Source of the DNA: Cognatundibacterium griseum
Lineage (GTDB): Bacteria; Pseudomonadota; Gammaproteobacteria; Burkholderiales; Burkholderiaceae_D
Assembly (NCBI RefSeq): GCF_014284195.1
Contig: NZ_JACOGC010000004.1
Span: forward strand, 248,001 to 312,000
Length of the DNA stretch: 64,000 nt
Direction of reading: 5' to 3'
The notes beneath the pieces were generated by a model. It was not told the origin of the DNA. It searched no databases and saw nothing but the letters and a program-made list of their open reading frames with translations. The translations under genes were made by a program, and so were the position numbers. Within the stretch, counting starts at the first letter, position 1, and each line of letters opens with the position of its first letter. Below, in pieces: positions 1 through 16,900 of the stretch.

Positions 1-112
1 ATTCAGCAGCCAGTGTCGCGCCAACGTTCACACCGATTTGACCAGCGTTTGCAGCCAACGCCGACAAACCCAGCGTAGCAGCAACAGCAACACGCATCAT
101 AGAATGTTTCAT
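1..112 (-). CDS. Secreted protein of unknown family, N-terminal fragment
   Basis: Only the first 37 codons lie in the window; the gene runs off the left edge. The start MKHSMMRVAVAATLGLSALA followed by ANA looks like a Sec signal peptide with cleavage after about residue 23. What follows (GQIGVNVGATLAAE) is too short to assign. An AAGGAAAT ribosome binding site lies 6–7 bases before the ATG, and a good sigma-70 promoter lies at 181–208. An outer-membrane or periplasmic protein is likely, but the family is unknown. Confidence 0.6.
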   Translation of the reverse strand, partial: MKHSMMRVAVAATLGLSALAANAGQIGVNVGATLAAE

Positions 113-362: not shown

Positions 363-2750
363 TTATTGTTTCACCCCTTTCTGTAAAGCACGTATTTGCT
401 CAATAATCTTCGGATCGGTCACAATATTGACCTGTTTTTGTTCGGTTACCGGCGGTTTTTCTGAAGTTGTTTTTATCGCAATATAAGATTCATTTTCGGA
501 TACTTGTTTTTGCTGATCCACCTCGTCAATAGCAGAAGAGTAATCCTTCTGTTTTTCGCCGGTTTGTGTCTCTTTTTTGCCACTCAGCTTGCTGACCGAT
601 GCTTTTTTAGCTGGCAATACAACCTGATTCACCGGGGCAGCCGCTGCCCAGCTGCCTAACTGACTGCGGAAAGCCTGGGTGACTGACTGGGCGGTCTGGT
701 CGTCATCCACAATATAAGGGGTGATCAGGACGATCAGCTCGGTCTTGTCATTGGTATCGGTCTGGGAGCGAAATAATGAGCCGAGGATGGGAATATCTTT
801 TGCCAGCGGCACGCCCGTGTTATTGCGCTGATTGTTACCGGAAATCAACCCGGCCAGCATGACGGTGGCGCCATCCTGAATCGAGAGCTTGGTTTCAATC
901 TTGCGGTTGCTGAAAGTGGGGGAGCTGCTGACGCCGGTATCGGTCACACCGGCAGAGCTGACCTCCTGAGAGACATCGACATCGATCCTGCCGCCGGCAT
1001 GAATCACGGGCTTTACCTTCAGGATGATGCCGGTATCTTTATACTGAATGGTCTGGGTGATGCCGCTGGCGCCCGGCGTAATCGACGCGGTGGTCTGCTG
1101 ACTGGTCAGGATCGGTACCTGTTGTCCGACGGAGATCGTGGCGCTTTCGCCATTGCGCGCCATGATGCGCGGACTGGACAGGATCTGGGCCCGCTTGTTG
1201 CCTGCCAGCGCATTAATGGCGGCCTTGATATTGCCATTGACGAGACTGAAGGTCATACCGCCGGATTTGAGTCCCAGATTGCCGAGCGTGCCGCCGACGA
1301 CATTCGAGGTCGTGCTGCCATTGTTCAGCGCCCATTCGACGCCGAGATTCATGCTGTCGGTCAGAGCGACTTCTGCGACCGTCATTTCGATCAGCGCCGA
1401 ACGCGCAGGCTTGTCGAGTTCGCGCAGCAGGCCTATCCATTGCGAATACTGGTCTGCGGTTCCCTGAATGATCAGGGTATTGGTTGCCTTGTGCACCACC
1501 ACACGCGCATTTTTCGCTGTGCTGGCAGTGGTATTACCCACTGCCGCCGTGGCCGGTGCGGTGCCGCCGATCAGGTCACTGACGGTTTTGGCGAGGTCTT
1601 CTGCATCGAGATTCAGTACGGCATAGGTGAAATAACCGTTATTACCGCGTGCCTTGGTCGGCTGGTCGAGGTCGTTTACCCATTCTGTCACGTGCTTCAG
1701 GATGCTGTCATCGCCGGCAAAAACAATCAGGCTGTTATTGGCAGAAATCGGCAGCAGCATGATCGGCATGCTGACAGCGCCCGGCCCCATGCCAACCTGT
1801 GAAGTGTAGCCTTCGGCGGCAAGAATTTCGGTGAGTTTTTTCGCCAGATCATCGACCGTCCAGTACACCGGATTGACACGCTGGCTGGTGCGGCCGCGCA
1901 TGGTCGGCTGATCCAGTATGCGCACCACTTCCAGCGCTGCGCGGACATCTTCTGTTTCACCGGAGATCATCAGGGCGTTGTATTGCGCGCTTTCGGTCAG
2001 TTGCAGGCGGTTGGCAAACATCTGGGACAGCCACTGCCGCATTTCAGATGAACGCAAAGCATTCATTTCCACATACTGATAAATAGGGCGCAATGCGATC
2101 GGCACCTCGGGCAAGGCGCGGCCACGGCGGATTTCCGGTGAATAACCCAGCTGGGCATTGTCAGGCACGATACGGTAAAAACCACCGACATCATTCACGG
2201 TAACGCCATAGCTTTTCAGCAGCATCTGCGCTGCACGCAATACTTCGGAAGGTGTCTGTGGTCTGGAGGTGCGCAGGGTCACGAGGTCTTTGCGCTCCAG
2301 CACACGCGGATCAACGCTGAAGTTCGCTTTCAGGACCACGCCATACACGGTGTTAATGAATGCAGGCAGGGCAATCTGGTCAAACACCAGCGAAATATCG
2401 GCTTTTTCATTGGCGGGCAATTCTTGCGGCTTGCTGACGCTGGCAGTGGCCGCCGCTGGCGGACGCGGCGTTTTTCTGACCGTCATGCGGGGTTCGTCGC
2501 TGGTTGCGGTCTCGGTGGCGGCACTGCCGGCAGTGCCTGCGGCAGTATCATCGCTGGCGGTGGTCAGCTGCAGGGTGGTCGGCAAGGGACCCGGCTTGTT
2601 CAGATTCAGCAGCGGATCATATTGCGCGCAGCCGGACAACAGCAGAGCGATCATCAGCGGCAACGTCTGCAGGGCAAAAGGCGGCTTGCGGGCATTCAGT
2701 GTGTGCATAGGAGAATGGATGTTTCCTGAGTTTTTTTGCATAGCATTCAT
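363..2750 (-). CDS. gspD: Type II secretion outer-membrane secretin GspD
   Basis: The 795-residue secretin forms the outer-membrane channel of the type II secretion system. The N-terminus carries a lipobox, LLLSGC with Cys41, so the protein is probably a lipoprotein that can reach the outer membrane without a separate pilotin. An N0-like domain (about 118–200) and N1–N3 repeats follow, then the conserved secretin core from about 450 to 690, including VPLAKDIPILGSLFRS and ELIVLITPYIV. The Lys/Gln-rich tail of about 90 residues is variable. It is the last gene of the operon, starting one base after the GspN/C-like gene. No clear ribosome binding site precedes the ATG, so translational coupling is likely; Met15 is an alternative start that keeps the signal sequence. 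Family certain; secreted substrates unknown. Confidence 0.95.
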   Translation of the reverse strand: MNAMQKNSGNIHSPMHTLNARKPPFALQTLPLMIALLLSGCAQYDPLLNLNKPGPLPTTLQLTTASDDTAAGTAGSAATETATSDEPRMTVRKTPRPPAAATASVSKPQELPANEKADISLVFDQIALPAFINTVYGVVLKANFSVDPRVLERKDLVTLRTSRPQTPSEVLRAAQMLLKSYGVTVNDVGGFYRIVPDNAQLGYSPEIRRGRALPEVPIALRPIYQYVEMNALRSSEMRQWLSQMFANRLQLTESAQYNALMISGETEDVRAALEVVRILDQPTMRGRTSQRVNPVYWTVDDLAKKLTEILAAEGYTSQVGMGPGAVSMPIMLLPISANNSLIVFAGDDSILKHVTEWVNDLDQPTKARGNNGYFTYAVLNLDAEDLAKTVSDLIGGTAPATAAVGNTTASTAKNARVVVHKATNTLIIQGTADQYSQWIGLLRELDKPARSALIEMTVAEVALTDSMNLGVEWALNNGSTTSNVVGGTLGNLGLKSGGMTFSLVNGNIKAAINALAGNKRAQILSSPRIMARNGESATISVGQQVPILTSQQTTASITPGASGITQTIQYKDTGIILKVKPVIHAGGRIDVDVSQEVSSAGVTDTGVSSSPTFSNRKIETKLSIQDGATVMLAGLISGNNQRNNTGVPLAKDIPILGSLFRSQTDTNDKTELIVLITPYIVDDDQTAQSVTQAFRSQLGSWAAAAPVNQVVLPAKKASVSKLSGKKETQTGEKQKDYSSAIDEVDQQKQVSENESYIAIKTTSEKPPVTEQKQVNIVTDPKIIEQIRALQKGVKQ

Positions 2751-2751
2751 A

Positions 2752-3204
2752 TTAGTTACGCCCGACTGCGAGCATGGCCTTTTTGCCGTTGACAGAAATA
2801 ACGACCCAGTTCTGTTCTATCCGCATCACCGGAAAACCGCCGGGCAACTTATCCCCGACGCTGAGTGTCTGCAGGTTGGCGGGATTATCTTTAAAACTGA
2901 TCACCAACTGATTGCTGCCGCCTGTCTTCACCACCGCCACGATGCGCCAGTCTGGCGGCGTCAGCGGTTTATCTTCGGTCAGCCGGAGTTCTGCGGCTGG
3001 TTCCTTCCATAAAGTCCGGCTGCTGAGCTGCTCCACTTTCATTTTGGGATCAGCTTGATAGACTGCCGGAATTTCCCATTCAGAAGCACCGCTGGCTGCG
3101 AGCTTTACGACGGGCAAAGGCGGCATGACAATTGCCATGATGCCGATTCCGGATATTGCCAGCAGGCTGGTGACCATGACGGTCAGGCGGATCCGGGGCC
3201 ACAT
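2752..3204 (-). CDS. Type II secretion inner-membrane connector, GspN/GspC-like
   Basis: This 150-residue bitopic protein has one membrane segment at about 8–28 and a periplasmic part ending in a compact HR/PilP-like domain (about 87–149, with LVISFKDNPANLQTLSVGDK). In GspC and XpsN this region contacts the secretin. Its place between gspM and gspD matches xpsN in the Xanthomonas order E-F-G-H-I-J-K-L-M-N-D. It is much shorter than GspC, which is usually near 270–300 residues, and has no PDZ domain. It probably links the inner-membrane platform to GspD. The start overlaps the gspM stop by one base. The role follows from context and the HR-like domain, not from strong sequence identity. Confidence 0.75.
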   Translation of the reverse strand: MWPRIRLTVMVTSLLAISGIGIMAIVMPPLPVVKLAASGASEWEIPAVYQADPKMKVEQLSSRTLWKEPAAELRLTEDKPLTPPDWRIVAVVKTGGSNQLVISFKDNPANLQTLSVGDKLPGGFPVMRIEQNWVVISVNGKKAMLAVGRN

Positions 3205-3875
3205 CAGGATTGTCCTTTCGCAGGTGATGCCGCATTGGCGCTGTCTGTGGTGCTGTCTGCGGCACCGGCTGCGCCCTGAGCGCCGGGCTGTCCGGACAAA
3301 TGGGTTAATGCTTTCAGATTCATTTCAGCCCGCCCTGTGGTGCCGATCCAGTTATACGTCAGGCTGTCCACGACCATCGTTTGCTTGTTGGTGTCGATGA
3401 TCTGCAACAGGCGGTACAGCGTGCGTGGCAGTGCCTCGAAACGCAGCTTGGCGCGCATGATGCTGACACCCGGCACCGCACCGGCTTCGTCCTCTTTTGT
3501 CTTCGTCGCGCCGTCTGCAAAGGCCTCTGACAACGCCACGGTTGCATTGACTGCTTTTTCCTGCAACAACAGGTTTTGCAGATAATCATTCCACTTGGAC
3601 TGGATCAGGCCGTGATTGCTGTCGGTCCAGTCTTTGTCGCGTAATTCGCTCAGCACTTTACCAGCTTCCTTGCTGCGTGCCAGCCACGACGTATCGGTTG
3701 CCTGCTGCCGCGCCTGCGCCAGCTGCACGCTGAGACGGCGGTATTCCTTCTGTTTTTTGACTACCCGTTCGGATTGATCCAGGGTCAGGTAAGTTCCCAG
3801 CGTTGCCACAATCAGTGCCAGGCCGACACGCAGCCGGACGTTGTTGCTGAGTTGTGAACGGAGACTGTCAGCCAT
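3204..3875 (-). CDS. gspM: Type II secretion inner-membrane protein GspM
   Basis: The 223-residue protein has a short cytoplasmic N-terminus, one membrane helix at about 15–32, and a periplasmic helical region followed by a ferredoxin-like fold (about 95–195). This matches GspM, which pairs with GspL in the assembly platform that connects the ATPase to the pseudopilus. The C-terminus is Ala/Ser/Gly-rich and probably disordered. A strong AGGAGG site precedes the ATG. It sits one base after gspL. Identity is low, as is normal for GspM, so the call leans on position and topology. Confidence 0.85.
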   Translation of the reverse strand: MADSLRSQLSNNVRLRVGLALIVATLGTYLTLDQSERVVKKQKEYRRLSVQLAQARQQATDTSWLARSKEAGKVLSELRDKDWTDSNHGLIQSKWNDYLQNLLLQEKAVNATVALSEAFADGATKTKEDEAGAVPGVSIMRAKLRFEALPRTLYRLLQIIDTNKQTMVVDSLTYNWIGTTGRAEMNLKALTHLSGQPGAQGAAGAADSTTDSANAASPAKGQS

Positions 3876-3876
3876 T

Positions 3877-5004
3877 TTATTCTTTTCCTCCTGCCGGATT
3901 GTCTGTCGTCATGGTCACACCTTTGCGCGGCAGCACCGTCATGCGGAATGACAGCGCTTTCGTGTCGCGTGCCAGCAGGTTCTGCACTTCAGCAAAATAG
4001 CCGCTGGCGATGAGGTTTTTGGTAATGTCGGCGCGGGACGGCGTTTCCAGCCCGCCGGCAATCACGATGCGCAGTTTGTTTTCCTGAAACTCCCATTCGC
4101 GGATGGTGGAATCGGACGGCAGGGCTTCTGCGACTGCGGTCATCAGGTCAAGCTGGCCCGGATAGGGGTCAAGACGCTGGCGCGCCGCAATTTCATCCAC
4201 GGCATGCAATGCGGTTTCTCTGGCCTGCACCAGGCTGTTCGCCTGCCCGGTCAGCTGTGCCATGTCGGTGCGGATCTGGTTCAGGCCACGATTGAGTTGC
4301 TGCTCGCGCAGGCTGTACCAGCCATAAGGCAACACCAGGCACAAAAACAGCAAGGCATAAAACCACTGCTCCAGCCGGTGATAGGATTGCGACAAACCGG
4401 CACTGGTGATGACGGGCAGCCACGGCTGTATGCTGACAACGGGTTGCTGCACTGCCGGCAATTGCGCAGAGACAGGCAGCGGGCTGCCGGCTTCACGGCA
4501 AAATCCGATGTAATCCTGCAGCTCCGGCGTTTGCGGCCACCAGCGGCTGCCGTGCAATTCGCCCTGTTTCCAGTATTGGGCTTCGACGCCGTCCAGACAG
4601 GCAAGCAGGCGCATGCCATCGGTATGCGGCGCTTGCAGCACGGTCTCCGGAATGGCCTCGGCGTTTTGCCATGCTGCGGGTAATTCTGCACGGCGCGCGC
4701 TCAGCCAGGCGGCATCCCAGCACCAGACCAGCGCTGCATCGGATTCCAGCACAATCGCAAATTCCGGCTGCGCAAAAGGCGACCATTGCCGCAGCTGCAA
4801 TTGCAGCGCCTGCAGCCTGCGTTTGACCGGAATATTTTTCAGGTCAAAGCGGGAAAAACGGCAAAATCCGCGGGCGATCACCAGTTGCGCCGGCAGCAGC
4901 GCGGCACCGGGCTTACTGAGGGGCGCCCTGGAGGATAAAAGGAGCCGTCGCGGCGCTGGCAGGCGTTGCCGTAAGGTCGAAAGGAATTGACGGAATGGCG
5001 TCAT
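3877..5004 (-). CDS. gspL: Type II secretion inner-membrane protein GspL
   Basis: The 375-residue protein has an actin-like cytoplasmic domain (about 40–175), a single membrane helix at 213–231 and a periplasmic ferredoxin-like domain. GspL recruits the ATPase GspE to the membrane. The ATG chosen overlaps gspK by 92 bases, which is long. A GTG at codon 42 (position 4881) would remove the overlap but has no visible ribosome binding site; the ATG at 5004 has no good one either. The first 40 residues are Arg/Leu/Pro-rich and do not look like a GspL N-terminus, so the true start may be downstream. The gene order K–L–M supports the identity. Confidence 0.85.
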   Translation of the reverse strand: MTPFRQFLSTLRQRLPAPRRLLLSSRAPLSKPGAALLPAQLVIARGFCRFSRFDLKNIPVKRRLQALQLQLRQWSPFAQPEFAIVLESDAALVWCWDAAWLSARRAELPAAWQNAEAIPETVLQAPHTDGMRLLACLDGVEAQYWKQGELHGSRWWPQTPELQDYIGFCREAGSPLPVSAQLPAVQQPVVSIQPWLPVITSAGLSQSYHRLEQWFYALLFLCLVLPYGWYSLREQQLNRGLNQIRTDMAQLTGQANSLVQARETALHAVDEIAARQRLDPYPGQLDLMTAVAEALPSDSTIREWEFQENKLRIVIAGGLETPSRADITKNLIASGYFAEVQNLLARDTKALSFRMTVLPRKGVTMTTDNPAGGKE

Positions 5005-5932
5005 TATTTTTTTGTATTATTCGTTGAGGAATACGGTAGTAGTAGTCGATACGCCAGGGTGCCTCGGGAGCGATCGGAGTAAGCGCCACATTATATCTGA
5101 TAGATGTCTGCTGACTGTCTGAGCCCAGACTGACCCGGATCGTATCTGCCGGGAAAGCAATCACTTTAAAATACAGCTGTTGCACGTCAATGCCAAGCAG
5201 ATTTGCCAGTTGCCCTTCATTCAGAATCGGTTCGATATTTCTGTATTGCAAAATTTTCGGTACGGCTTCTGCGGTAATGCCCGGCAAAGTCATCAAAACC
5301 GCCGGTATGGCGGTATTCGGATTCACGGCGATGACCCTGGCAGTGGTCACCCAGTCCGTGATCGGCTCGCTGCCCGACCAGAGGCTGTCCTGTTCTTTCC
5401 AGCCGTAAACCTGACGCAGCTGATCTGGCGTCACCAGCAGTTGCCCGGTCGGGGCGGGCAGGCCGTGCGTTTTGTAATCTTCTTTCTGGACGCCATTCAG
5501 ACGGTGCATATTCGGCGTCGGGTCCATGTAATCCATCAGGGTATCAAACAGCCGGTCATGCTCGGCTTCCGGGACACCTTTGCGGCTCAGCAGGACACCC
5601 AGCGTATCCCGGCTGGCGCCATTGATGGCATACAAACCGCGGGTATCCTGAAACCGGGCGATGCAATCGCCTTCCATGCGGTAAGGCTGATTATTGAGCT
5701 TGATATGCGTCGCCGGGTCGCCCAGACCATACATGCTGAATCCCTGGGTCGCCAGCAGATAGGCGATTTCCGCCTTACTGTCGCTGCAGGCAATCTGTGT
5801 CTGGATGTGGGCGTCATATTGCTTTGCCAGTTCGATCGAGGCGGCAATCCGCTGGGCGAAATACGTGGCGGCAATCGTAATGCCGGCCAGTATCCAAAGC
5901 GTTGCCACCAAAATGAATCCCCGCGACTTCAC
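4913..5932 (-). CDS. gspK: Type II secretion minor pseudopilin GspK
   Basis: The 339-residue protein is the large minor pseudopilin that caps the pseudopilus tip together with GspI and GspJ. It starts at GTG in a GTGA overlap with the gspJ stop. The prepilin signal is short: MKSRG then FILVATLWILAGITIAATYF, with cleavage expected after Gly5. As in other GspK proteins, the glutamate at mature position 5 is missing (Ala here). The large alpha-helical insertion typical of GspK fills about 95–230 (for example MDYMDPTPNMHRLNGVQKED). The processing peptidase GspO/PilD is not in this window. Confidence 0.92.
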   Translation of the reverse strand: MKSRGFILVATLWILAGITIAATYFAQRIAASIELAKQYDAHIQTQIACSDSKAEIAYLLATQGFSMYGLGDPATHIKLNNQPYRMEGDCIARFQDTRGLYAINGASRDTLGVLLSRKGVPEAEHDRLFDTLMDYMDPTPNMHRLNGVQKEDYKTHGLPAPTGQLLVTPDQLRQVYGWKEQDSLWSGSEPITDWVTTARVIAVNPNTAIPAVLMTLPGITAEAVPKILQYRNIEPILNEGQLANLLGIDVQQLYFKVIAFPADTIRVSLGSDSQQTSIRYNVALTPIAPEAPWRIDYYYRIPQRIIQKNNDAIPSIPFDLTATPASAATAPFILQGAPQ

Positions 5933-6549
5933 CGCATCACCTCGTTAAATTTCTTCCGGATATCCGGCAAGGGATTGACTGGCCCGGCCGGTTTGAACGC
6001 CAGCATCCAGGGCTGGCCGTCGCGCTCGGTCTCGATACGGATACTTTCGGGTATCTGGCGGCTGCGGTCGAATTCCGGCGGCCAGCTTTCATGCTCCTGC
6101 TGCTTGATGTCGAGATAGACAAACCGGCCGCGCCGCCCTTCCCAGCTCAGCAAACGCAAGGGTTTCTCCTGATACTGCGCATCACTGTACTCCAGCACCA
6201 TGCGTTTTTCAGCCGCATCAAACCGCAGGCGCAATTGAAATGCGGTCGGCACGCCAAACTGGCCGGTAAAGACAGAGGTGCTGATGGCGCTGATCTGCAA
6301 TGGCTGACCTTTGAATTGCTGTTTGCCGTCTTCATCGTCCGGCTGCAGGCCTTCGAGCAGCTGAGTCAGCCACGACTGCGCCATCGCCTGATTGCTGTTA
6401 CGGTCCAGCTCGGTGCCGAAACGCTGGTGCAGGCTCATGGTGTGTTGCAATGCCTGCAGCAGGATCATGACGATCATGCCGGACATGGCAATCACGACCA
6501 GCATTTCAAGAATCGTGAATCCTTTGGAAGATTTGTCAGAAGATGCCAT
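5929..6549 (-). CDS. gspJ: Type II secretion minor pseudopilin GspJ
   Basis: This is a 206-residue pseudopilin with class III signal MASSDKSSKG then FTILEMLVVIAMSGMIVM; Glu5 of the mature form is present. The beta-rich C-terminal domain ends with SIRIETERDGQPWMLAFK. The ATG at 6549 is preferred over an in-frame GTG three codons earlier because it gives the usual leader length. It overlaps gspI by 14 bases and gspK by 4. It is expected in the pseudopilus tip complex with GspI and GspK. Confidence 0.93.
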   Translation of the reverse strand: MASSDKSSKGFTILEMLVVIAMSGMIVMILLQALQHTMSLHQRFGTELDRNSNQAMAQSWLTQLLEGLQPDDEDGKQQFKGQPLQISAISTSVFTGQFGVPTAFQLRLRFDAAEKRMVLEYSDAQYQEKPLRLLSWEGRRGRFVYLDIKQQEHESWPPEFDRSRQIPESIRIETERDGQPWMLAFKPAGPVNPLPDIRKKFNEVMR

Positions 6550-6979
6550 TGAGCGCACGCACTTTCTTAAAACCTGCCAGTTTCAGATGCAGGGTAAACC
6601 AGGCCGGGTCTTCCACCGTCCGTCCGGTCACCTCCACCTCATACAAACCGACCTGATACAGGCCGATGCCGGACGGATAGGCACGGTTATCCGCCACCGG
6701 ACCGGAGACTCTGGATTTCCATTCGATACGGTAAGCACCGAATTCCGCCTTGCCATCCGGATTCTGCATGGGATTGACTGCCTGCATATAGCCGATCACG
6801 TTGGCAATCGCATCGTTACGCGCATTGACGGTCTGCACTTTCCCCAATGAGATGATGCTGGTGTTAATCCAGGCAAACAGGGTCATGCCGATGGTGCCGA
6901 TGAGCGCAAATGCAACGATCGCTTCGAGCAGGGTAAAGCCGCGCTGACGACGGCCGGAATTCCGGTATTTATTGCGCAT
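6536..6979 (-). CDS. gspI: Type II secretion minor pseudopilin GspI
   Basis: This 147-residue pseudopilin carries the leader ...RRQRG then FTLLEAIVAFALIG, with the conserved Glu5 after cleavage. The short C-terminal domain has VGLYEVEVTG and WFTLHLK strands typical of GspI. The start ATG lies inside the end of gspH (11-base overlap); an in-frame GTG lies one codon upstream. Together with GspJ and GspK it is expected to start assembly of the pseudopilus. Confidence 0.92.
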   Translation of the reverse strand: MRNKYRNSGRRQRGFTLLEAIVAFALIGTIGMTLFAWINTSIISLGKVQTVNARNDAIANVIGYMQAVNPMQNPDGKAEFGAYRIEWKSRVSGPVADNRAYPSGIGLYQVGLYEVEVTGRTVEDPAWFTLHLKLAGFKKVRALNGIF

Positions 6980-7400
6980 CACTGACCCCGCATCGTGGCG
7001 CAGACAGGCGTATCACTTCCGGCGGATGTTCAGGCGTCCGGAGCTCCATCACGCCGCCATCACAATAGCCGTTAAACTGGTAGTGCAGCGGCACCGGTAT
7101 GCGTACCGACCATCCCGGGGGTAAATCGAGCGCAGGCTTGTCGTCTTTCAGCGCATCGGCCAGGTTATCCGTTTTCAGCACAGAGTCCTGTGCCAGCAGG
7201 TAATGGCGGTAACTGAGCGCATTGATCTGCGCCAGCACACCGGACCGTTCGCTGTGATAGCGCAGGCTGTCAATCAGCTTGCCCAGCGCCGGCATCGCCA
7301 GCGAACCCAGCAGGCCTAACATCGCCAGGACAATCAATAACTCCAGCAAGGTGAAACCGTACTGCCCGGAATGCTTTTTTTTACGGCTGCTTGTTGGCAT
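6969..7400 (-). CDS. gspH: Type II secretion minor pseudopilin GspH
   Basis: The product is a 143-residue pseudopilin. The open frame extends 62 codons further upstream but only inside gspG; the ATG at 7400 gives a normal leader MPTSSRKKKHSGQYG followed by FTLLELLIVLAMLGLLGSLA. The C-terminal domain contains LPPGWSVRIPVPLHYQFNGY and ends with VIRLSAPRCG. It overlaps gspG by 20 bases. GspH joins the pseudopilus shaft to the tip complex. Identification rests on the leader and the position between G and I. Confidence 0.88.
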   Translation of the reverse strand: MPTSSRKKKHSGQYGFTLLELLIVLAMLGLLGSLAMPALGKLIDSLRYHSERSGVLAQINALSYRHYLLAQDSVLKTDNLADALKDDKPALDLPPGWSVRIPVPLHYQFNGYCDGGVMELRTPEHPPEVIRLSAPRCGVSDAQ

Positions 7401-7839
7401 GATCGCCAGCAGGAACGATGCCGATGGCACCTTCGCCATTCTGATTACCATCCGGACCCAGCGAGTACAGGGCAAACGGCTTGCCTGCCGGTCCCGGTAC
7501 GGCATAGACGTAAGGAGCGCCCCACGGATCGGCCGGCAGCTCTTCATCCAGATACGGGCCTTTCCATTTGTTTTTGATTTTTTCATCCGCAGGCGGCGTA
7601 TTCAGGATTGCCAGACCTTCTGACTGCGTCGGGAAACGGCCAATGTCGAGCCGCATGGTTTCTAACGCACCCTTGAGCATCTTGACCTGGGTTTGCGCAG
7701 TCTGGACTTTGGATGAGTCGAGCTTGCCAAACAGCTTAGGGCCGACCAGACTTGCCAGCAAGCCGATAATCACCAGCGTAACCAGCATTTCGATCAGCGT
7801 AAAGCCGGCCTGACGGAGTAATTGAGGTGTGTTTTTCAT
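7381..7839 (-). CDS. gspG: Type II secretion major pseudopilin GspG
   Basis: This 152-residue major pseudopilin forms the piston-like pseudopilus fibre. The leader MKNTPQLLRQAG precedes FTLIEMLVTLVIIGLLASLV, and the GspG signature is present in full: MRLDIGRFPTQSEGL, WKGPYLDEELPADPWG and FALYSLGPDG, where the aspartates bind calcium in characterised homologues. Its length and motifs match the family closely. It lies 52 bases downstream of gspF, the widest gap inside the core operon. Confidence 0.97.
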   Translation of the reverse strand: MKNTPQLLRQAGFTLIEMLVTLVIIGLLASLVGPKLFGKLDSSKVQTAQTQVKMLKGALETMRLDIGRFPTQSEGLAILNTPPADEKIKNKWKGPYLDEELPADPWGAPYVYAVPGPAGKPFALYSLGPDGNQNGEGAIGIVPAGDHANKQP

Positions 7840-7891: not shown

Positions 7892-9094
7892 CTAGACTGC
7901 GATATCGCTCAGGCTGGTGATCGCCATCATGATAGCAGCCATGATCAGACCGATGACGGAACCAATCAGCAAAATCGTGATGGGTTCGAGCATGATCAGG
8001 AATTTTTTCATCCTCTCCTGCCCTGCATTGGTGTGCAGCACGGACAGGGTTTTCAGGGTTGTGGGCAATTCGCCGGTGCGCTCTCCCACTCTGACCAGAT
8101 TCAGGCCCATCGGGTTCAGTGTGCGGTGCACGCCCAGCGACTCGGCCAGCGAGGTGCCGCCCTTGAGGTCGCGTACTGCCAGCGCCAGCTGCTGTTTCAA
8201 CAGGCTGATCTGCACGCCACCCTGCGCCAGTTCCATCGCCTTCACGATGGGCACGCGGTTTTCCAGCAGGGTGGACAGCATGCCGGCCCAGCGGCCGATT
8301 TCCGTTTCGATCAGCCATGCGCCAATCAGGGGCATGTGCGCCAGCGCATCCCAGAATTTCTGCCTGACCTGAGGGCGGGAAAATATCCCTGCCAGGAAAA
8401 ACACTGCCAATCCGGCGCCGACGCCCAGAATCAGCAGATGTTCCTTCACAAACATGCCGGTCTGCAGCACCCAGACGGAGATATCGGGCAGCTTGCCTTT
8501 GTTGTTTTTCAGCAGTCCGGCAAATTTCGGAACCACGACGATAAAAATCAGCAGGGTCGCGAGCACTCCGGAGACCGCCAGCACCGCCGGATAGGTCAGC
8601 GCATTGCGCATATCCTGACGGACTTTGTCTTCGTACTCCATCTGATTCGCCGCATGGTGCAGGGAATGGGCGAGTTTGCCGGTCATTTCACCAGCGGCAA
8701 CCAGCTGCATCAGATAGTCAGGAAAATCAATGCCGCAGCTGCCCAGGGCGTCTGTCAGCTTGCCGCCGCCACGCAGGGTCTGGGCAATCTGCTGAGCAGC
8801 CTTGCCGACAGGCGTGGCGCCGGACGCTTCGCTCATGGACTGGATGGCTTCCACCAACGACACGCCCGCCGCCAGCAACGTTGCCAGTTCCCGCACCATC
8901 AGCATTTTGTCCTGCGCACTGACAGTCCGTCTGCTGACCGGCTGGCTGCCGGACTGCAAGCTGATCTGACGCAGTGAGACAGGCGTCAGTCCCTGCTGCC
9001 GCAGCAGGCGTATCGCATCTGCCTCATTGCCCGCTTCGATCTGACCTTTCACTATACGCCCATCTGCGGTACTGGCTTCGTATTGATATGCCAT
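7892..9094 (-). CDS. gspF: Type II secretion inner-membrane platform protein GspF
   Basis: The 400-residue polytopic protein has two T2SSF domains (about 70–193 and 270–395) and membrane segments near 168–193, 218–238 and 366–392. GspF contacts the ATPase and the pseudopilins at the inner membrane. The opening MAYQYEASTADGRIVKGQIE is typical of the family. The ATG overlaps the gspE stop by one base (TGATG), which implies coupled translation. Confidence 0.96.
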   Translation of the reverse strand: MAYQYEASTADGRIVKGQIEAGNEADAIRLLRQQGLTPVSLRQISLQSGSQPVSRRTVSAQDKMLMVRELATLLAAGVSLVEAIQSMSEASGATPVGKAAQQIAQTLRGGGKLTDALGSCGIDFPDYLMQLVAAGEMTGKLAHSLHHAANQMEYEDKVRQDMRNALTYPAVLAVSGVLATLLIFIVVVPKFAGLLKNNKGKLPDISVWVLQTGMFVKEHLLILGVGAGLAVFFLAGIFSRPQVRQKFWDALAHMPLIGAWLIETEIGRWAGMLSTLLENRVPIVKAMELAQGGVQISLLKQQLALAVRDLKGGTSLAESLGVHRTLNPMGLNLVRVGERTGELPTTLKTLSVLHTNAGQERMKKFLIMLEPITILLIGSVIGLIMAAIMMAITSLSDIAV

Positions 9095-10815
9095 CAGCTT
9101 GCTACCTGATTACTTAAACCGGTGACCCGCATGACTTCATCGATCGTTGTCATGCCATTTCTTGCCTTGATCAGTCCGTCTTCGCGCAAATTGCGATAGC
9201 CGTCGCGCCTTGCCAGCTGAGTCAACTCATGCGCGGGCATGCGCTGCACAATCGCCGCCTGCAATGCGGTCGTGACTTCAACGAATTCATAAATGCCGAC
9301 CCGGCCACGATAACCGGTCTGCTGGCATTGCGGACAGCCGACCGCATGATGCCATTGCCCCGGAGCCGCCAGCAAGGCCGGAAAGCGCTGTTGCAAGTCC
9401 TGCATCTGGCGGCTGAATTCTGCCGGGGCCGACTGCATCATGTCGTCTTCTGTCATTGGTCTGGCGCAGTGCTGGCACAGACGGCGCACCAGCCGCTGCG
9501 CCTGCACCGCACGCAATGAAGAAGCTACCAGGAAGGGCTCCAGCCCCATGTCGATCAGACGGTTGAACGCACCCAGCGCATCATTGGTATGCAGGGTGGA
9601 AAACACCATGTGCCCGGTCAGCGCCGACTGCACCGCGATCTCCGCAGTTTCCAGATCGCGGATTTCACCAATCATGATGATATCGGGGTCATGCCGCAGA
9701 ATCGCCCTGAGCGCGCGGGCAAAGGTGTATTCGATTTCTGCATGGGTCTGGATCTGGGTGATGCCATCCATCTTGTATTCCACCGGATCTTCGACCGTGA
9801 TGATTTTCTTTTCGCGGTCGTTCGCTTCTGCCAGCGCAGCATATAAGCTGGTGCTTTTTCCGGAGCCGGTCGGCCCGGTCACCAGCACGATGCCGTGCGG
9901 CTCCTTGATCCATTGCCGGAATTTTTCCAGATGATCGGCTTCCATGCCGAGTTTTTTGAGGCTGAAATCCTTACGTTCCTTGGGCAGCAGGCGCAGCACG
10001 ATCGATTCGCCATGCACGCCGGGAATCACCGATACCCGGATGTCGATGTCGATGCCGCTGGCACGGATGCTGATGCGGCCATCCTGCGGTAACCGGCGTT
10101 CGGCAATATCCAGCCCCGAAATCAGCTTGATGCGCGACACCACGGCGTCAAAGCGGTCTCTGCCAAAACGCATTTTGGTGGTCAGGATGCCATCAACCCG
10201 GAACCGGATTTCAAACCCATGCTCTTCCGGTTCGATGTGAATATCCGATGCACCCAGATCAATCGCCTGTGCCCAGGTGTTATTGACCAGCTCGATGACC
10301 GGCGCTTCTTCAGCCAGCTCGCGCAAATGCGCAACTTCATCGGAAAAGGCGCTGGCCAGACCATCGGCGCGCAGCAGATTCAGCATCCGCTCCACGTCGC
10401 GGGAACGGATGAAATGCCAGTGCAGCCGGTGTTGGGTAAAACTGCTGCTCAGGGTTTCATTCACAAAACTGTTAAGCGGATTGACGGAAGCACATTCGAT
10501 GGCGCCTTCTGCCCCTTCCCAGATCACGACACCCTGCTCGGCCAGCCAGCCCGTGCTGATCCCGCCGAGCTGTGCAGCCTGCTCGATCACTGCCGCTGAA
10601 GTGGGCAGCAATGTTTCATCCAGCACAGGTATTCCCAGCTGCCCGGCCAGCACCGGCAGCAGATTGTCTTCGGAAATAGCACCGATACGGATCAGTATCT
10701 GCCCCAGTCGCGCACCCAGCTGAGGTTGCAGCTGCAGCGCACGCTCTACGTCAGCTCCGGAAACCAGTTGCTTCTGAATTAATAACTCACCGATCGGTGT
10801 CAGATTCATGGACAT
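9094..10815 (-). CDS. gspE: Type II secretion ATPase GspE
   Basis: The 573-residue secretion ATPase drives pseudopilus assembly from the cytoplasmic face. An N-terminal MshEN-like region (about 1–140) precedes the ATPase core: Walker A GPTGSGKS at 314–321, Asp box around 343, Walker B DPDIIMIGEIRD at 376–387, and the His box STLHTND. The zinc-binding cysteine pairs of GspE/PilB are at 447/450 and 494/497. It is longer than the usual 500 or so residues because of the N-terminal extension. It lies eight bases after the SoxZ-like gene, so the two are almost certainly cotranscribed. Confidence 0.96.
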   Translation of the reverse strand: MSMNLTPIGELLIQKQLVSGADVERALQLQPQLGARLGQILIRIGAISEDNLLPVLAGQLGIPVLDETLLPTSAAVIEQAAQLGGISTGWLAEQGVVIWEGAEGAIECASVNPLNSFVNETLSSSFTQHRLHWHFIRSRDVERMLNLLRADGLASAFSDEVAHLRELAEEAPVIELVNNTWAQAIDLGASDIHIEPEEHGFEIRFRVDGILTTKMRFGRDRFDAVVSRIKLISGLDIAERRLPQDGRISIRASGIDIDIRVSVIPGVHGESIVLRLLPKERKDFSLKKLGMEADHLEKFRQWIKEPHGIVLVTGPTGSGKSTSLYAALAEANDREKKIITVEDPVEYKMDGITQIQTHAEIEYTFARALRAILRHDPDIIMIGEIRDLETAEIAVQSALTGHMVFSTLHTNDALGAFNRLIDMGLEPFLVASSLRAVQAQRLVRRLCQHCARPMTEDDMMQSAPAEFSRQMQDLQQRFPALLAAPGQWHHAVGCPQCQQTGYRGRVGIYEFVEVTTALQAAIVQRMPAHELTQLARRDGYRNLREDGLIKARNGMTTIDEVMRVTGLSNQVAS

Positions 10816-10823
10816 GCGGTTCT

Positions 10824-11132
10824 CTATACGGTGACGCGGAAAGTTTCGACAGCGGTTTTGCCCAGATTATCCAGCCATTCCACTTTGACGATATCGTTTT
10901 TCAGCAGATGCTTGGCACGACATACCAGTTTGGGATGTGCCGCCATGGCCGGATTGAACTGTGCTGTCAGCAACACGCGGTCATTGCTGGTAATGCTGAG
11001 TTCCTGAATGAAATTGCGGTAACTGACTTTGCCGGATTTGGCCTGCACAGCGCTGTCATCGCGGAAGGGGTTATCAATCAGCAAAGTCATTTCCACGAAA
11101 TCATTCTGACGTTTGCATGTCAATGCGATCAT
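10824..11132 (-). CDS. SoxZ-like protein at the head of the T2SS operon
   Basis: This 102-residue protein matches SoxZ, the partner of the SoxY sulfur carrier. Visible family features are an N-terminal strand (FVEMTLLIDNPF), the FIQELSIT and VLLTAQFNPAMAAHP segments corresponding to the FIQ.VT and VLTAQWG..VS.NP blocks, and the ending VKVEWLDNLGKTAVETF. Like SoxZ it has no signal peptide and would need export together with its partner. It starts two bases after the SoxY-like stop and ends eight bases before gspE. No soxXA, soxB or soxCD is in the window, so thiosulfate oxidation is not supported. Family call is good; function is unknown. Confidence 0.75.
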   Translation of the reverse strand: MIALTCKRQNDFVEMTLLIDNPFRDDSAVQAKSGKVSYRNFIQELSITSNDRVLLTAQFNPAMAAHPKLVCRAKHLLKNDIVKVEWLDNLGKTAVETFRVTV

Positions 11133-11134
11133 AA

Positions 11135-11599
11135 TTATTCGGATAAAAATTTGTTATCAAACGGAACCGCAATTTTGACTTCTTTTTGCGCCGTGTAAAG
11201 CTTGCCACCGGCCCGCACAATCAGTTGCACCGTGGTCGTTCCTTTCAGACGGATCTGCGTCTGGATCTCGGCTTCGGTACCGACGGGTATAGTAAATTGT
11301 GCAATTGCCGGCGGCACCGCCGTTGCTGCCATCAACAGCATCATCTCTGTTCCGGGCAGCTCACTGCGGATACGAACCGGGATGCGTTCTGGGTCCAGGC
11401 TGACTTCCGGTACTTCAATCAGCAACCGGTTACTCGGCTCCGGCGCTTCTTTCTCGGGCAAGTTTCTGAGCGCTTCAGGCACGGTATTGGCTTCAAACAG
11501 CTTACGGCTCAAGGCTGCCAATACCGTCTGTGGCAGCATTGCCGCTGCCATCATGGTCAGTCCGGACACCAGGGATAAGCGTCGCAACTTATTCAGCAT
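11135..11599 (-). CDS. SoxY-like protein without the sulfur-binding cysteine
   Basis: The 154-residue protein has a signal peptide (MLNKLRRLSLVSGLTMMAAA, cleaved near LA/ALS) containing a twin arginine, though the Tat motif is weak. The mature part follows the SoxY Ig-like domain: LLIEVPEVSLDPERIPVRIR, SELPGTEMMLLM, AQFTIPVGTEAEIQTQIRL and LIVRAGGKLYTAQKEVKI. In true SoxY the chain ends with a GGCGG arm that carries the substrate on its cysteine. Here it ends with PFDNKFLSE, and the whole protein has no cysteine. The ATG is preferred over a TTG two codons upstream. It is first of a 13-gene operon leading into gspE–D. It cannot be a conventional sulfur carrier; a structural or chaperone-like periplasmic role is a guess. 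Confidence 0.75.
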   Translation of the reverse strand: MLNKLRRLSLVSGLTMMAAAMLPQTVLAALSRKLFEANTVPEALRNLPEKEAPEPSNRLLIEVPEVSLDPERIPVRIRSELPGTEMMLLMAATAVPPAIAQFTIPVGTEAEIQTQIRLKGTTTVQLIVRAGGKLYTAQKEVKIAVPFDNKFLSE

Positions 11600-11899
11600 A
11601 TACAACTGTCTTTCAATAAATATAATTTACACACTTCTGCTCACGACCTGCCGCTGACCGGCGAAATACCGGGATTTTACCTGTTATTCAGTCGTTAATA
11701 AGGGAAATTCAGGGAATCACGCTCACCGCGCCTGATAAGGTTTTGTTTAAATTCCTGTATTTGTGCAACAATTTGTTTTACTGGTCAATCGCACAGTCCC
11801 ATATAGTAGAATGCGGGCTGCGATTATAAAATCAAATATTTGTCGCTGTTCCGATCAATTACCTCTCTACAACCAGCCTCGTGCCCCCCTGCCCCAGCA

Positions 11900-12742
11900 A
11901 TGCGTATATTTAAATCTCTCCTGTGCTTTTTGCGGGCGCCATGGGTCAGTTTGTGGATCAACCGGGAATTGCTGTACCAGCTTTGCAAACGCGATATCAG
12001 TGCCAAATATAAGGCGTCGGCACTGGGACTGGCCTGGTCTGTGCTGCTGCCGCTGACAATGCTGGCGATTTACGCCTTCGTTTTTGGTGAAGTATTCAAA
12101 TCACGCTGGGGCAATGCGCCGCCGCCGCAAACCTGGTCCGAAAGACTGAGTTTTGCCCTGATTCTGTATGCCGGCCTGATGACGTTTAACTGGTTTGCAG
12201 AATGTCTGTCCAAAGCACCAACCACGATCCTGCATCACGTGAATTTCGTCAAGCGCGTGATTTTCCCTCTGGATATTCTGCCGGTCATTCCGGTCGTCAT
12301 CGGAGGATTTCATTTCCTCATCAGCGGTCTGGTGCTGGCGGGGTTCACTGTGGCGTCGCCCGTACCCGTTACCTGGCACTGGCTGCTAACGCCGGTGTTG
12401 CTGCTGCCGTTTATTTTTTGCCTCACAGGCATCAGCTGGCTGCTCAGCGCCATCGGCGTGTATTTCCGCGATATGGAGCAGATGATGCCGGCACTGACCA
12501 GTGCGCTGATGTTTCTGAGTCCGGTGTTTTATTCAGTGCAGGTACTGCCGGAATTTATCCGTCCCTGGCTGATGGCGAATCCAATGACACTGATAATTGA
12601 AACCTTGCGCAATCTGCTGTTCTGGCAGCAGCTGCCTGAGTCTGCCGCACTGGCCGGCCTGTATGGTTTTTCCCTGTTGCTGTTTTATCTGGGTTATTCG
12701 TGCTTCACTGTCTTGCGACGGGGGTTCAGCGATGTCCTCTGA
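11900..12742 (+). CDS. wzm: ABC-2 type glycan export permease (Wzm-like)
   Basis: The product is a 280-residue polytopic membrane protein of the polysaccharide/O-antigen export family. The ATG giving MRIFKSLLCFLRAPWVSLW is chosen; the frame stays open to a TTG 20 codons earlier, but that extension looks non-coding. The family marker RDISAKYKASALGLAWSVL follows a cytoplasmic amphipathic start, then six membrane segments; the segment GVYFRDMEQMMPALTSALMF is typical. It partners with the overlapping Wzt-like ATPase to move an undecaprenol-linked glycan to the periplasm. First gene of the glycan operon, divergent from the SoxY-like gene across a 300-base gap with no other gene. Confidence 0.92.
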   Translation: MRIFKSLLCFLRAPWVSLWINRELLYQLCKRDISAKYKASALGLAWSVLLPLTMLAIYAFVFGEVFKSRWGNAPPPQTWSERLSFALILYAGLMTFNWFAECLSKAPTTILHHVNFVKRVIFPLDILPVIPVVIGGFHFLISGLVLAGFTVASPVPVTWHWLLTPVLLLPFIFCLTGISWLLSAIGVYFRDMEQMMPALTSALMFLSPVFYSVQVLPEFIRPWLMANPMTLIIETLRNLLFWQQLPESAALAGLYGFSLLLFYLGYSCFTVLRRGFSDVL

Positions 12743-13970
12743 TGTCATGATTTCCGCCCACGGCATCGGCAAAGCCTATGCCTTGAACGCCAGCCCCTTG
12801 CGTCAGATGCTGGCGCAATTCCGGCCATCCCGGCAAATACATGATTTCTGGGCGCTCAGGCCGTTAGACCTGACCGTGCGGCGGGGTGAAGTGATCGGCG
12901 TGATCGGACAGAATGGCTCGGGAAAATCAACCTTGTTGCAGCTTTTATGCAATACGCTGAGCCCCAGTTGCGGTACTGTGCAGGTCAATGGCCGGCTGGC
13001 GGCATTGCTGGAGCTTGGCGCCGGATTCAACCTGGATTTTACCGGCTGGGAAAATATCCGTTTAAGTGCCGCCCTGTATGGCCTGAGTCTCGCGGAAACC
13101 GAACAAAAAATCGAAGCGATCGCGGCTTTTGCGGATATCGGGGATTTTATTGACAAGCCAGTCAAGACTTATTCCAGCGGCATGTTTGTGCGGCTGGCGT
13201 TTGCCGTGATTGCCAATATTGATGCGGATATTCTGGTGATTGACGAGGCACTGGCAGTCGGTGATGTCTTTTTTACCCAGAAATGCATGCGTTTTCTGCA
13301 GTCTTTTGCGGAAAAAGGCACCATTCTGTTTGTCAGCCATGACAGTGCCAGCGTCGTCAGCCTGTGCAACCGCGCGATTTTGCTGGAGCACGGAACACTG
13401 CTGGCCGATGGCGACCCAAAGACCATCACCGAATATTACTTACAAAAACAATATTCCCATCAGCAACCGCAAACGGATCAGACACCGGTAAAAACTGGCG
13501 ATTCTGCAGTAAATCATGGAGAATTCGGGCTGAAGGGATTATCCGTGCAGGCAGTCAGCGTTCTGGACAGCGGGAGACAGCCGGTGTTTCAGCTGCACGG
13601 TGCGACGTCTTTATGTCTGAACATACAGATTACGGCGCATCAGGACACTGCTCATCCGCTGGTCGGTTTCTCCCTGAAAGACAGACTCGGGCAGGTCATG
13701 TTTGGCGGCAACTCCGCCGATGCACAAGGTCATTTACCTGCTCTCCAGGCCGGGCAATCATTGCAGGTGGAATTTGATCTGACCGTCCCCGGTCTGACGC
13801 TCGGCGATTACATGATCAGCGTTGCCGTCGGGGAAGGGAATGCCAGAAATCATCTGATGCATCACTGGATCCATGATGCCTACGCCCTGCGTTCGACGCT
13901 GGCGGTTCAGAGCGGCATGCTGGAAATTCCTGTCGACAGAATGCGTCACCATTTGTTGTCCACATTATGA
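12732..13970 (+). CDS. wzt: ABC glycan exporter ATPase with C-terminal glycan-binding domain (Wzt-like)
   Basis: This is a 412-residue ATPase of the O-antigen/polysaccharide exporter. Walker A is GQNGSGKST, the signature is TYSSGMFVRLAFA and Walker B ILVIDEALAVGD. The ATPase fills about 1–240; a C-terminal beta-sandwich of the Wzt carbohydrate-binding type (about 265–405, with HPLVGFSLKDRLGQVMFGGN) follows, which in O9a-type systems recognises the finished chain end. That suggests a chain-terminating modification, and the next gene starts with a methyltransferase domain, as in O9a where the cap is a methyl-phosphate. The ATG overlaps the permease stop by 11 bases. Confidence 0.93.
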   Translation: MSSDVMISAHGIGKAYALNASPLRQMLAQFRPSRQIHDFWALRPLDLTVRRGEVIGVIGQNGSGKSTLLQLLCNTLSPSCGTVQVNGRLAALLELGAGFNLDFTGWENIRLSAALYGLSLAETEQKIEAIAAFADIGDFIDKPVKTYSSGMFVRLAFAVIANIDADILVIDEALAVGDVFFTQKCMRFLQSFAEKGTILFVSHDSASVVSLCNRAILLEHGTLLADGDPKTITEYYLQKQYSHQQPQTDQTPVKTGDSAVNHGEFGLKGLSVQAVSVLDSGRQPVFQLHGATSLCLNIQITAHQDTAHPLVGFSLKDRLGQVMFGGNSADAQGHLPALQAGQSLQVEFDLTVPGLTLGDYMISVAVGEGNARNHLMHHWIHDAYALRSTLAVQSGMLEIPVDRMRHHLLSTL

Positions 13971-16900
13971 ATACATCAAAAAATAATACGGCGATTCCGG
14001 TTGCTGAACGCTATCAGTACGAGATTGATCTTTCTGCCAATACGGCGGCGGCGCAGGTTGTCCGGCTGACCGGTGAGCAGAAGTCGGTGCTGGAGCTCGG
14101 CCCCGGGCCAGGCACGATCCTGCGTTATCTGGCGCGGCATCAGCAATGCACCGTCAGTGCGGTAGAGCTGGATCAGGCCTGTGCCGACGCATTGCGGGAT
14201 GTTTGCCAGACCGTGGTGCAAGGCAATCTCGATCAGTCAGACTGGCTGCAGGCATTTGCCGGACAGCGCTTCGATGTCATCATTGCCGCCGATGTGCTGG
14301 AGCATCTGCAGAATCCGTGGCAATGCCTGCGCGATATGCGCAGCCTGTTGACGGCGGATGGTTATGCGGTGATTTCGATCCCGAACGTCGGTCACAATTC
14401 GGTACTGGCGTCGCTGATGACAGGGCGTTTTCCTTATCAGTCCCGCGGATTACTGGATCAAACGCATCTGCGTTTTTTTACACGCCATGATTTTGAGCAG
14501 GTATTGTTTGAATGCGGCCTGCTGCCCAGCCACTGGTTTGCCATCCAGAAACCCGCTGCCGAAGCCGAGCTGGGACATCACTGGACGACCCTGAATCCAA
14601 TGCAGCAGCAAATGCTGAATGCCAACCCTTACGGCAACGACTACCAGTATGTCGTGCGGGCGTATGCCAGCACCGAAGCGGGACATATCGCCAAAACGCA
14701 AGCGCTGATGGACGACACACATGCCATCAATGTCCGGCAGCAACAGGAAAATGAACGCTTGTCGGGGTTGCTCGAAAATCGTCAGCAATCTTTGGAAAAT
14801 GCGCATCAAAAAATTGCCGATCTGGTTCGACAGTTTGAATTGCAGGATCACCACTACCTGCAACTGCTGAGTGAAAAAGACCAGTCCTATGCGGCGCTGA
14901 CAAAGGAATTCCATACGGGGATTGAGCAGCAGCATGCCTTATCTGCGCAAATCGGACTTGAAAAAAACCAGCAACTGGTGCTGCAGCAAGAAATCGAAAA
15001 AACCGGTCAGGTGGTGATGGATCTTCAGCAGCAACTGCGGCAGGCCGATGCCAGGATTGAAGAACTCTGGAATTCAACCTCCTGGAAAATCACCAAACCA
15101 ATCCGTGTGTTGCGAAGGCTGTTTGGCGGTATCTCCGTCCGCGCGCAGTTACGCAATGCTTACCGTGTGATGCCTGCGCCGGTTCAGTCTGTGCTGAATC
15201 AGACCGGGATTACGGCTACGCTCAGAAATAATCTGCCGGCAGCGGAATCCGGCCAGAGCTGGGTCTGTGCCGTCGGTACAGCTGCCGGCACCAACCCGTT
15301 TGACGGTCTGCTCAATGGCAGCGCTCCGGATGGGGTAGAAGATGTATTTTTCTGGGGCGTGATTGACTGGCATTTCCGCTTCCAGCGCCCGCAACAGCTG
15401 GCGATCGGCTTCCATCATCGTCGCCACCGGGTTTTCTACATCAGTTCCGAACTGGTTAACCGGACTGAACCCGGCTACCAGGTTGAAGCGATTGCGGGCA
15501 TGCACAATGTGTTCCAGATTCGCCTGTACGCAAATTCAGCGCCGCCGATCTATCACCATAGCGCGGACAGCAACCTGCTGCGTCAGTTACAGACCAGCTT
15601 TGCAATGCTGTTGCAGGATGCAGGAATCAAAGATCTGATTTCCATCGTTCAGCACCCGTTCTGGCTGCCGATGGCGCGCAGCGCGCCGTCCAGCCGCCTG
15701 GTGTACGACTGTATGGATCATCACGAAGGATTTGGGAATTGTCCACCGGACGTGATTGCCGGTGAACGGGCACTGATGGCAGAAGCAGATACCCTGATCG
15801 TCACATCGGACTGGCTGTACAACATTGCCAAAGATAAAAATCCGAATACATTTATCGTCAGGAATGCCTGTGAATTCAGGCATTTCAGCCAGCGTCCGGC
15901 AGATGTGTATCACGATCCGAAACAAAGAAAAATCCTCGGCTATTTCGGCGCGATTTCAGACTGGTTTGACTGCAGCATCGTGGCAAAACTGGCCGAACAC
16001 TTTCCGGAATGCCTGATTCTGTTGGTCGGGGCGGATACTTGCGGTGCCGCTAAAAAACTGGCGAAATACGGCAACGTCAAGCTGACAGGCGAAGTTCCGT
16101 ATCAGCAGCTGCCGCACTATCTGTACGCATTTGATGTCTGCATCCTGCCGTTCCAGATTATTGATCTGACACTGGCAACCAATCCGGTCAAGGTATATGA
16201 ATACATGTGCTCAGGCAAACCGGTGGTCAGTGTGCAACTGCCGGAACTCGCCAGCATGAAACAGATGGTTTATCTGGCCGACGACAGCCGTCAGTTTATC
16301 GCGCATTGCGAACAGGCCTTGCAGGAAGCACCTGATGCGCCGCAACGTCAGCAGCGCATCACTTACGCCAGTGAACAGACCTGGGTACACCGCGCGGAAG
16401 AACTGGAAAGCGCCCTGGAGCAAAGCCGCTCACCGCTGGTCAGCATCGTCGTGGTCACCTATAACAACCTGAACCTGACCCAGCTGTGCCTCGCCAGCAT
16501 TGAAGCAGAAACGACGCACATCCGTTATGAAATCATTATCGTTGACAATGCTTCCAGTGACGGTACCCAGGATTACCTGCAACAATTCGCGGCAGGCAAA
16601 GCGCATGTGTCGCTGATTCTGAACGACGACAACACCGGTTTTTCCAAAGCAAACAATCAGGGTCTGGCGCAGGCAAAAGGTGATTATCTGGTCGTCCTGA
16701 ATAACGACACAGTCGTCACGCGTGGCTGGGCCAGCAGCCTGATTCGTCATTGCCGGAAAAATCCGGAGATCGGTCTGATCGGGCCGGTCACCAACAATAT
16801 CGGCAATGAGGCAAAAATCGATATTCAGTACGACTCTCTGAACGAGATGCCAACCAAAGCGCGGGAATATACGTTAACCCACCTGGGACAGTCGTTTGAT

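Follow-up and report, generated by a model that had tools for sequence, protein, structure and literature searches.

GspA/B, the pilotin GspS and GspN are envelope helpers encoded with the gsp genes of type II secretion systems (T2SSs). Genuine SoxYZ, the thiosulfate carrier, is believed to cross via Tat as folded SoxY carrying SoxZ. Clusters of gsp genes also lie beside genes for S-layer proteins, with npdA in this position in many Beta- and Gammaproteobacteria (PMC10765051) and slr4 in Pseudoalteromonas (PMC7821379). In the locus described in this study, which lies within a window of 64,000 nucleotides of Cognatundibacterium griseum DNA (the whole stretch that was analysed), a gsp operon is headed by genes for a SoxY-like and a SoxZ-like protein, members of a SoxYZ-derived, arm-less, secretion-linked subfamily. 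On balance, the pair would seem to be a non-catalytic periplasmic accessory that derives from SoxYZ and serves a dedicated S-layer-type T2SS, its recruitment having taken place once, in an ancestor within the Burkholderiales (in the GTDB sense).

The SoxY-like and SoxZ-like pair and its operon

The genes run on the minus strand in the order soxY-like, soxZ-like, gspE, F, G, H, I, J, K, L, M, a short gspC-like gene and gspD (Table 1), all the gsp genes (gspE, F, G, H, I, J, K, L, M, C and D) lying in one cluster, in which the GspC call is a weak Pfam match. The GspC-like proteins of related clusters are similarly short. The gap between the soxY-like and soxZ-like genes is 2 nt (11133-11134) and that between the soxZ-like gene and gspE is 8 nt (10816-10823), in agreement with the original prediction, which had placed the two genes two bases apart and eight bases before gspE.

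Table 1. Coordinates of the features of the gsp operon within the window.
Feature	Position	Strand	Evidence
SoxY-like protein, 154 aa, operon's first gene (ATG at 11599, stop ends at 11135), N-terminal signal region with RR	11135..11599	-	Pfam, AlphaFold, dN/dS 0.042
SoxZ-like protein, 102 aa, 2 Cys, without signal peptide	10824..11132	-	Pfam SoxZ, model, dN/dS 0.035
gspE ATPase, 8 nt past the soxZ-like gene	9094..10815	-	GspE tree
gspF	7892..9094	-	
gspG, major pseudopilin	7381..7839	-	
gspH, gspI, gspJ and gspK, minor pseudopilins	4913..7586	-	
gspL and gspM, platform genes	3204..5004	-	
GspC-like protein, short, 150 aa	2752..3204	-	Weak Pfam T2SSC match, no PDZ match
gspD secretin	363..2750	-	Pfam Secretin, Secretin_N
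510-aa exported Thr/Ala-rich protein, probably S-layer-like, N-terminus (remainder outside the window)	1..112	-	

The SoxY-like protein matches the Pfam SoxY family at E=1e-14 (55.2 bits, cut-off 28.4) and the SoxZ-like protein matches Pfam SoxZ at E=3e-14 (53 bits, cut-off 25), with no other Pfam family found in the pair up to E=10. Both score below the cut-offs of the curated models, with 85 bits against a cut-off of 125 for TIGR04488 (true SoxY) and 51.9 bits against 76 for TIGR04490 (SoxZ_true), and identity to genuine Rhodocyclales proteins is about 29-33% for the SoxY-like and about 19-24% for the SoxZ-like protein. The earlier statement that the two proteins follow SoxY and SoxZ closely is slightly too strong for such levels of identity.

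The C-terminus of the SoxY-like protein reads ...AQKEVKIAVPFDNKFLSE, with PFDNKFLSE where the GGCGG arm would be, and 0 Cys are counted from the ATG over its 154 aa, so that the replaced arm and the complete lack of cysteine were both described correctly from the outset. The GGCGG arm is missing also in four close relatives of this protein. An RR is present in the signal region (LRRLSLV) and does not fit the strict Tat motif, which is found in some close relatives.

The two proteins were modelled with AlphaFold, each as a single chain and from alignments of 15 rows. The SoxY-like model (pLDDT 76.6) has SoxYZ of Paracoccus as its top PDB match, with a TM by target of 0.85, and values of up to 0.87 are reached against solved SoxYZ structures, while the top PDB matches of the SoxZ-like model (pLDDT 83.2) are SoxZ, with a TM by target of about 0.7. 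As modelled, the pair has the SoxYZ fold.

A genuine Sox system was considered for the locus and rejected, as there is no SoxB and no Cys arm. The absence of soxB from the window, noted previously, extends to the whole genome (G000) in searches for SoxB over the cut-off, and the window pair is the only SoxY and the only SoxZ match in that genome.

Arm loss, linkage to gspE and distribution

Relatives were found through profile searches of family, order and class samples, together with reading of the fetched neighbourhoods. A total of 154 distinct SoxY domains were collected, 137 with the GGC arm and 17 without it. No gspE-like gene lies within 1.5 kb of any of the 137 GGC-arm SoxYs (0/137; at least 1.2 kb was read on both sides for 123 of them), and 16 of the 17 arm-less SoxYs are found beside gspE, the remaining one ending 58 nt from a contig end. 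SoxB over the cut-off was detected in only three of the 17 arm-less SoxY carriers (G042, G035 and G036), each of which holds a separate genuine, arm-bearing soxYZ. Two findings that had been set out beforehand as refuting a role in secretion, namely a neighbourhood seen in this genome only, or the same proteins mainly beside soxB, were not made.

In a SoxY tree that was built with the GGC arm cut off, the gspE-linked proteins make up one side of a branch with support of 90/94, present in 92% of bootstrap trees. A single recruitment of SoxY to gsp would be the simplest reading of this tree and, given a single origin, the 16 linked cases are not independent. In the GspE tree, the SoxY-linked gspE genes group together, apart from two other GspE-like genes, and the presence of SoxY requires two changes.

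Strong purifying selection is evident between the window and the Undibacterium oligocarboniphilum locus (L002), with dN/dS of 0.042 for soxY, 0.035 for soxZ and 0.049 for gspE, the synonymous sites having diverged and the proteins being held. Loss of the catalytic arm could by itself be decay, and the pair could then be a decaying sox relic that hitchhikes by chance beside the gsp operon, but with dN/dS of 0.04, reading frames that are open in all copies, and a linkage that persists across seven genera and both orientations, this explanation is barely credible. That the fold has been taken over for a secretion-related role, as originally proposed, gains support from the selection, the single origin and the co-occurrence with the gsp cluster.

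The form seen in the window, with SoxYZ and gspE (type 1), was found in five Undibacterium genomes. The same order of soxY-soxZ-gspE-F-G-H-I-J-K-L-M-C-D, with a similar Cys-less tail, is present in U. oligocarboniphilum EM 1 (L002), a betaproteobacterial MAG (L003), U. terreum (L004) and G037, the first three of which are apparently the same records as G013, G023 and G042. A one-genome oddity was accordingly rejected, with the same pair in the same order at the head of the gsp operon of four further genomes from the Undibacterium lineage, and chance is excluded because of this recurrence and that of the linked SoxY subfamily in seven genera.

In a second form (type 2), SoxY alone accompanies a more divergent gspE, of about 45-48% identity, in Undibacterium genomes G002, G017, G033 and G035 and in G104, which belongs to another genus; the type 2 SoxY of G036 lies at a contig end. 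In G079 and G117, SoxY alone, with an altered Cys tail (GPCE, GPCKK), is found ahead of a gspE with 65-66% identity. A Cys-less SoxYZ is present in a second family (f21), where it shares the direction of gspE in G692, whereas the two diverge in G540, G576 and G720. The gspE-linked SoxY thus spans seven genera and two families of one order, and the linkage occurs in both orientations, being co-directional in the window, G692, G079, G117 and type 2, and divergent in the other three f21 genomes. Among 44 Undibacterium genomes, the close GspE type is present in the same five genomes as type 1 SoxYZ, and the four genomes found to have the divergent GspE type all carry the divergent SoxY alongside (4/4). 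In a class-wide sample of 369 genomes, the best 19 non-own matches were all GGC-arm SoxYs with SoxZ and none was with gspE, suggesting that, as far as sampled, the gspE-linked form is confined to the order.

The short divergent SoxYs of genus g5 were also considered as gspE-linked relatives, and were rejected on the grounds of a GGCLG arm, no gsp neighbour and grouping with genuine SoxYs. These proteins (L096, L097, L098, L099, L101, L104, L105, L106 and L107) form a long branch within the genuine SoxYs, and a second SoxY match is present in several g5 genomes.

The gspE-linked SoxYs at L103:9363-9923 and L110:6278-6745 each retain one Cys, within a tail that is altered (GPCE, GPCKK). SoxYs with these tails branch between the genuine and the other linked SoxYs, and it is possible from this position that they are intermediates in arm loss. 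The Cys retained in G079 and G117 could also mean that the linked proteins are still carriers of sulfur or of a small molecule, through residues other than the C-terminal Cys, and the strand preceding the arm position (K-L-Y-T-A-Q-K-E-V-K) is conserved with genuine SoxY. Such a role is nevertheless very improbable for a protein with 0 Cys in the window, in a group where most carriers are without SoxB and where linkage is strictly to gsp and not to sox genes. The pair is, with high confidence, a functional secretion-linked component rather than a Sox carrier.

Neighbouring exported proteins and the possible role of the pair

Directly after gspD lies the gene for an exported protein of 510 aa (positions 112 to 1 of the window and onwards in L218:17581-19113), which has a signal-peptide-like N-terminus, a high content of Thr, Ala, Ser and Gly, and few charged residues. 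It evolves fast, its identity to the copy in G013 being about 51-53%, although gspE is 97% identical. Most of the SoxY-linked gsp clusters have beside them an exported, Thr/Ala-rich protein of about 490-650 aa that is likewise fast-evolving. Counterparts of the 510-aa protein are encoded after gspD in G013, G023, G037, G042 and G692, and close to gspD in G079 and G117; in G051 the gene lies upstream and diverges from gspE, and in the type 2 clusters it is again upstream, preceding soxY. In G540 and G576, soxZ is instead followed by the gene for an exported protein of 1099 aa, which has a weak Ig-like match.

From its position, composition and size, the 510-aa protein is probably an S-layer-like substrate of the T2SS, and the secretion system looks dedicated to it. 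The label S-layer-like rests on these three properties because no S-layer model gave a match better than E of about 0.5: the surface-like proteins matched no S-layer family, no family of Pfam or NCBIfam matched the 510-aa protein, and Slr4 was reached in one relative, only at E of about 0.5. Another family of exported surface proteins, protein X, of about 570-630 aa, is encoded directly before the SoxY-only gene of the type 2 clusters, at L091:8912-10645, L092:9021-10802, L093:9426-11177, L094:6943-8661 and L102:8698-10587, and is matched by no family model. A search of the window genome for protein X gave no match; the exported protein that follows gspD there is a different one, though similar in kind.

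Genes for a Wzm/Wzt-type ABC transporter and for a 1074-aa methyltransferase/glycosyltransferase-like protein lie at 11840-17191 of the window, divergent from the operon, and similar genes are present near the gsp clusters of L092, L093 and L223, suggesting a surface-glycan context. The presence of transporter genes of the Wzm/Wzt type, and of glycosyltransferase-like genes, in the vicinity of several clusters would be in keeping with a surface coat that is glycosylated.

SoxY is retained across lineages whose surface proteins are very different, and it tracks gspE and not any one substrate lineage. This would be expected if the pair were an assembly or structural accessory of the machine, whatever the substrate, either helping the secretin to reach or assemble in the outer membrane or stiffening the platform (GspL, GspM or the short GspC without a PDZ match). 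The place of soxY as first gene in an operon with gspE, the short GspC, and the cluster in which no further accessory gene was seen also agree with such a role. However, related clusters with the same gene set (G051 and G425) do without SoxY, and an apparatus part, whether in secretin assembly or to compensate for the short GspC, is unlikely, if still the main rival. In all, six related gsp clusters are without SoxY (G051, G425 and four f22 genomes), and an exported surface-like protein adjoins gspE in G051 and in at least three of the f22 genomes, which indicates that SoxYZ is not needed for such a T2SS in general. A substrate adaptor or chaperone is tentatively preferred to an apparatus part, since SoxYZ is missing from gsp clusters that are closely related and share this gene set, and is hence not a general part of the machine.

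Optional presence in related systems would also suit a periplasmic sensor or regulator, in which a Cys-less SoxYZ, as a small soluble Ig-like heterodimer, monitors the state of the envelope or the substrate and adjusts secretion from outside the substrate route. No accompanying signalling gene was seen in the loci that were read, however, and this role is improbable.

The signal regions of the linked SoxYs may point to a route of export. SoxZ is not obligatory: the SoxY-only form keeps its linkage to gspE, and no SoxZ over the family cut-off is present anywhere in the SoxY-only, SoxB-less genomes G002, G017, G033, G104, G079 and G117. An RR is found in the signal region of all seven SoxZ-paired SoxYs examined (7/7), five of which (5/7) have the strict Tat-like pattern, and the twin-arginine motif has mostly been lost from the SoxZ-less SoxYs (RR in 3/8, strict Tat-like pattern in 1/8). 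This fits what one expects if RR is retained so that folded SoxY can carry SoxZ through Tat. The suggestion that SoxZ is co-exported by its partner would agree with the RR kept in the paired SoxYs examined, while the lack of a strict Tat motif in the window SoxY counts against it, and it has to be narrowed, given the existence of SoxY-only forms.

In the mechanism proposed, SoxY would bear the export signal and SoxZ, where present, would cross the inner membrane with it as a folded Tat heterodimer. Once in the periplasm, the beta-sandwich of SoxY, without its thiol arm, may bind the surface protein once this has been exported, or else the gsp apparatus, and may deliver or hold the substrate for the pseudopilus and the secretin. 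In its fullest form, put forward here more tentatively still, SoxYZ would be a dedicated periplasmic chaperone or adaptor that feeds the S-layer protein into the T2SS, exported as a folded Tat complex while its client travels via Sec, and would represent a T2SS component of a new class, as well as the first case in which SoxYZ has been reused for protein secretion.

Comparison with known systems

The literature search found no paper in which SoxY or SoxYZ figures as a component of type II secretion, which is in line with the original remark that no T2SS component of this type was known. If the role proposed here is true, an unrecognised component would be added to a widely studied secretion system, and the pair would offer a clear example of how a catalytic carrier can become a chaperone or a structural part, in which the lost residue is exactly known. 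Substrate recognition by T2SSs has no general answer, and the question would become testable with an adaptor that is restricted to one lineage and tied to a single substrate. There is additionally a hazard for annotation, as homology to SoxY and SoxZ could credit genomes that lack the Sox pathway with sulfur oxidation.

With the SoxYZ thiosulfate carrier (TIGR04488, TIGR04490; PDB 2OX5, 2OXG, 2OXH, 4UWQ), the window pair shares both Pfam families, the fold, the soxY-soxZ gene order and a signal peptide on SoxY only, but differs from it in the loss of the GGCGG arm and of all SoxY Cys, in scores below the curated cut-offs, in the lack of a genomic SoxB and in its placement with gspE. A precedent for reuse of the fold, in name, is the quinoprotein dehydrogenase-associated SoxYZ-like carrier (TIGR04557), a relative of SoxYZ whose name refers to a non-Sox context; this model, however, holds both domains in one protein, whereas the window has two genes, which score 28.6 and 18.4 bits against a cut-off of 140. 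The envelope helpers GspA/B, GspS and GspN have no sequence match to the pair, in which Pfam finds SoxY and SoxZ only.

The texts on NpdA (PMC10765051) and Slr4 (PMC7821379) make no mention of Sox or SoxY, and Undibacterium is not mentioned in the former. The S-layer T2SS clusters that they describe, those of NpdA in Paracidovorax and Delftia (PMC10765051) and of Slr4 (PMC7821379), are alike to the locus of this study in having a gene for an exported surface protein at the end of, or beside, the gsp cluster, and mature NpdA, at about 52 kDa (PMC10765051), is close to the 510-aa protein of the window genome.
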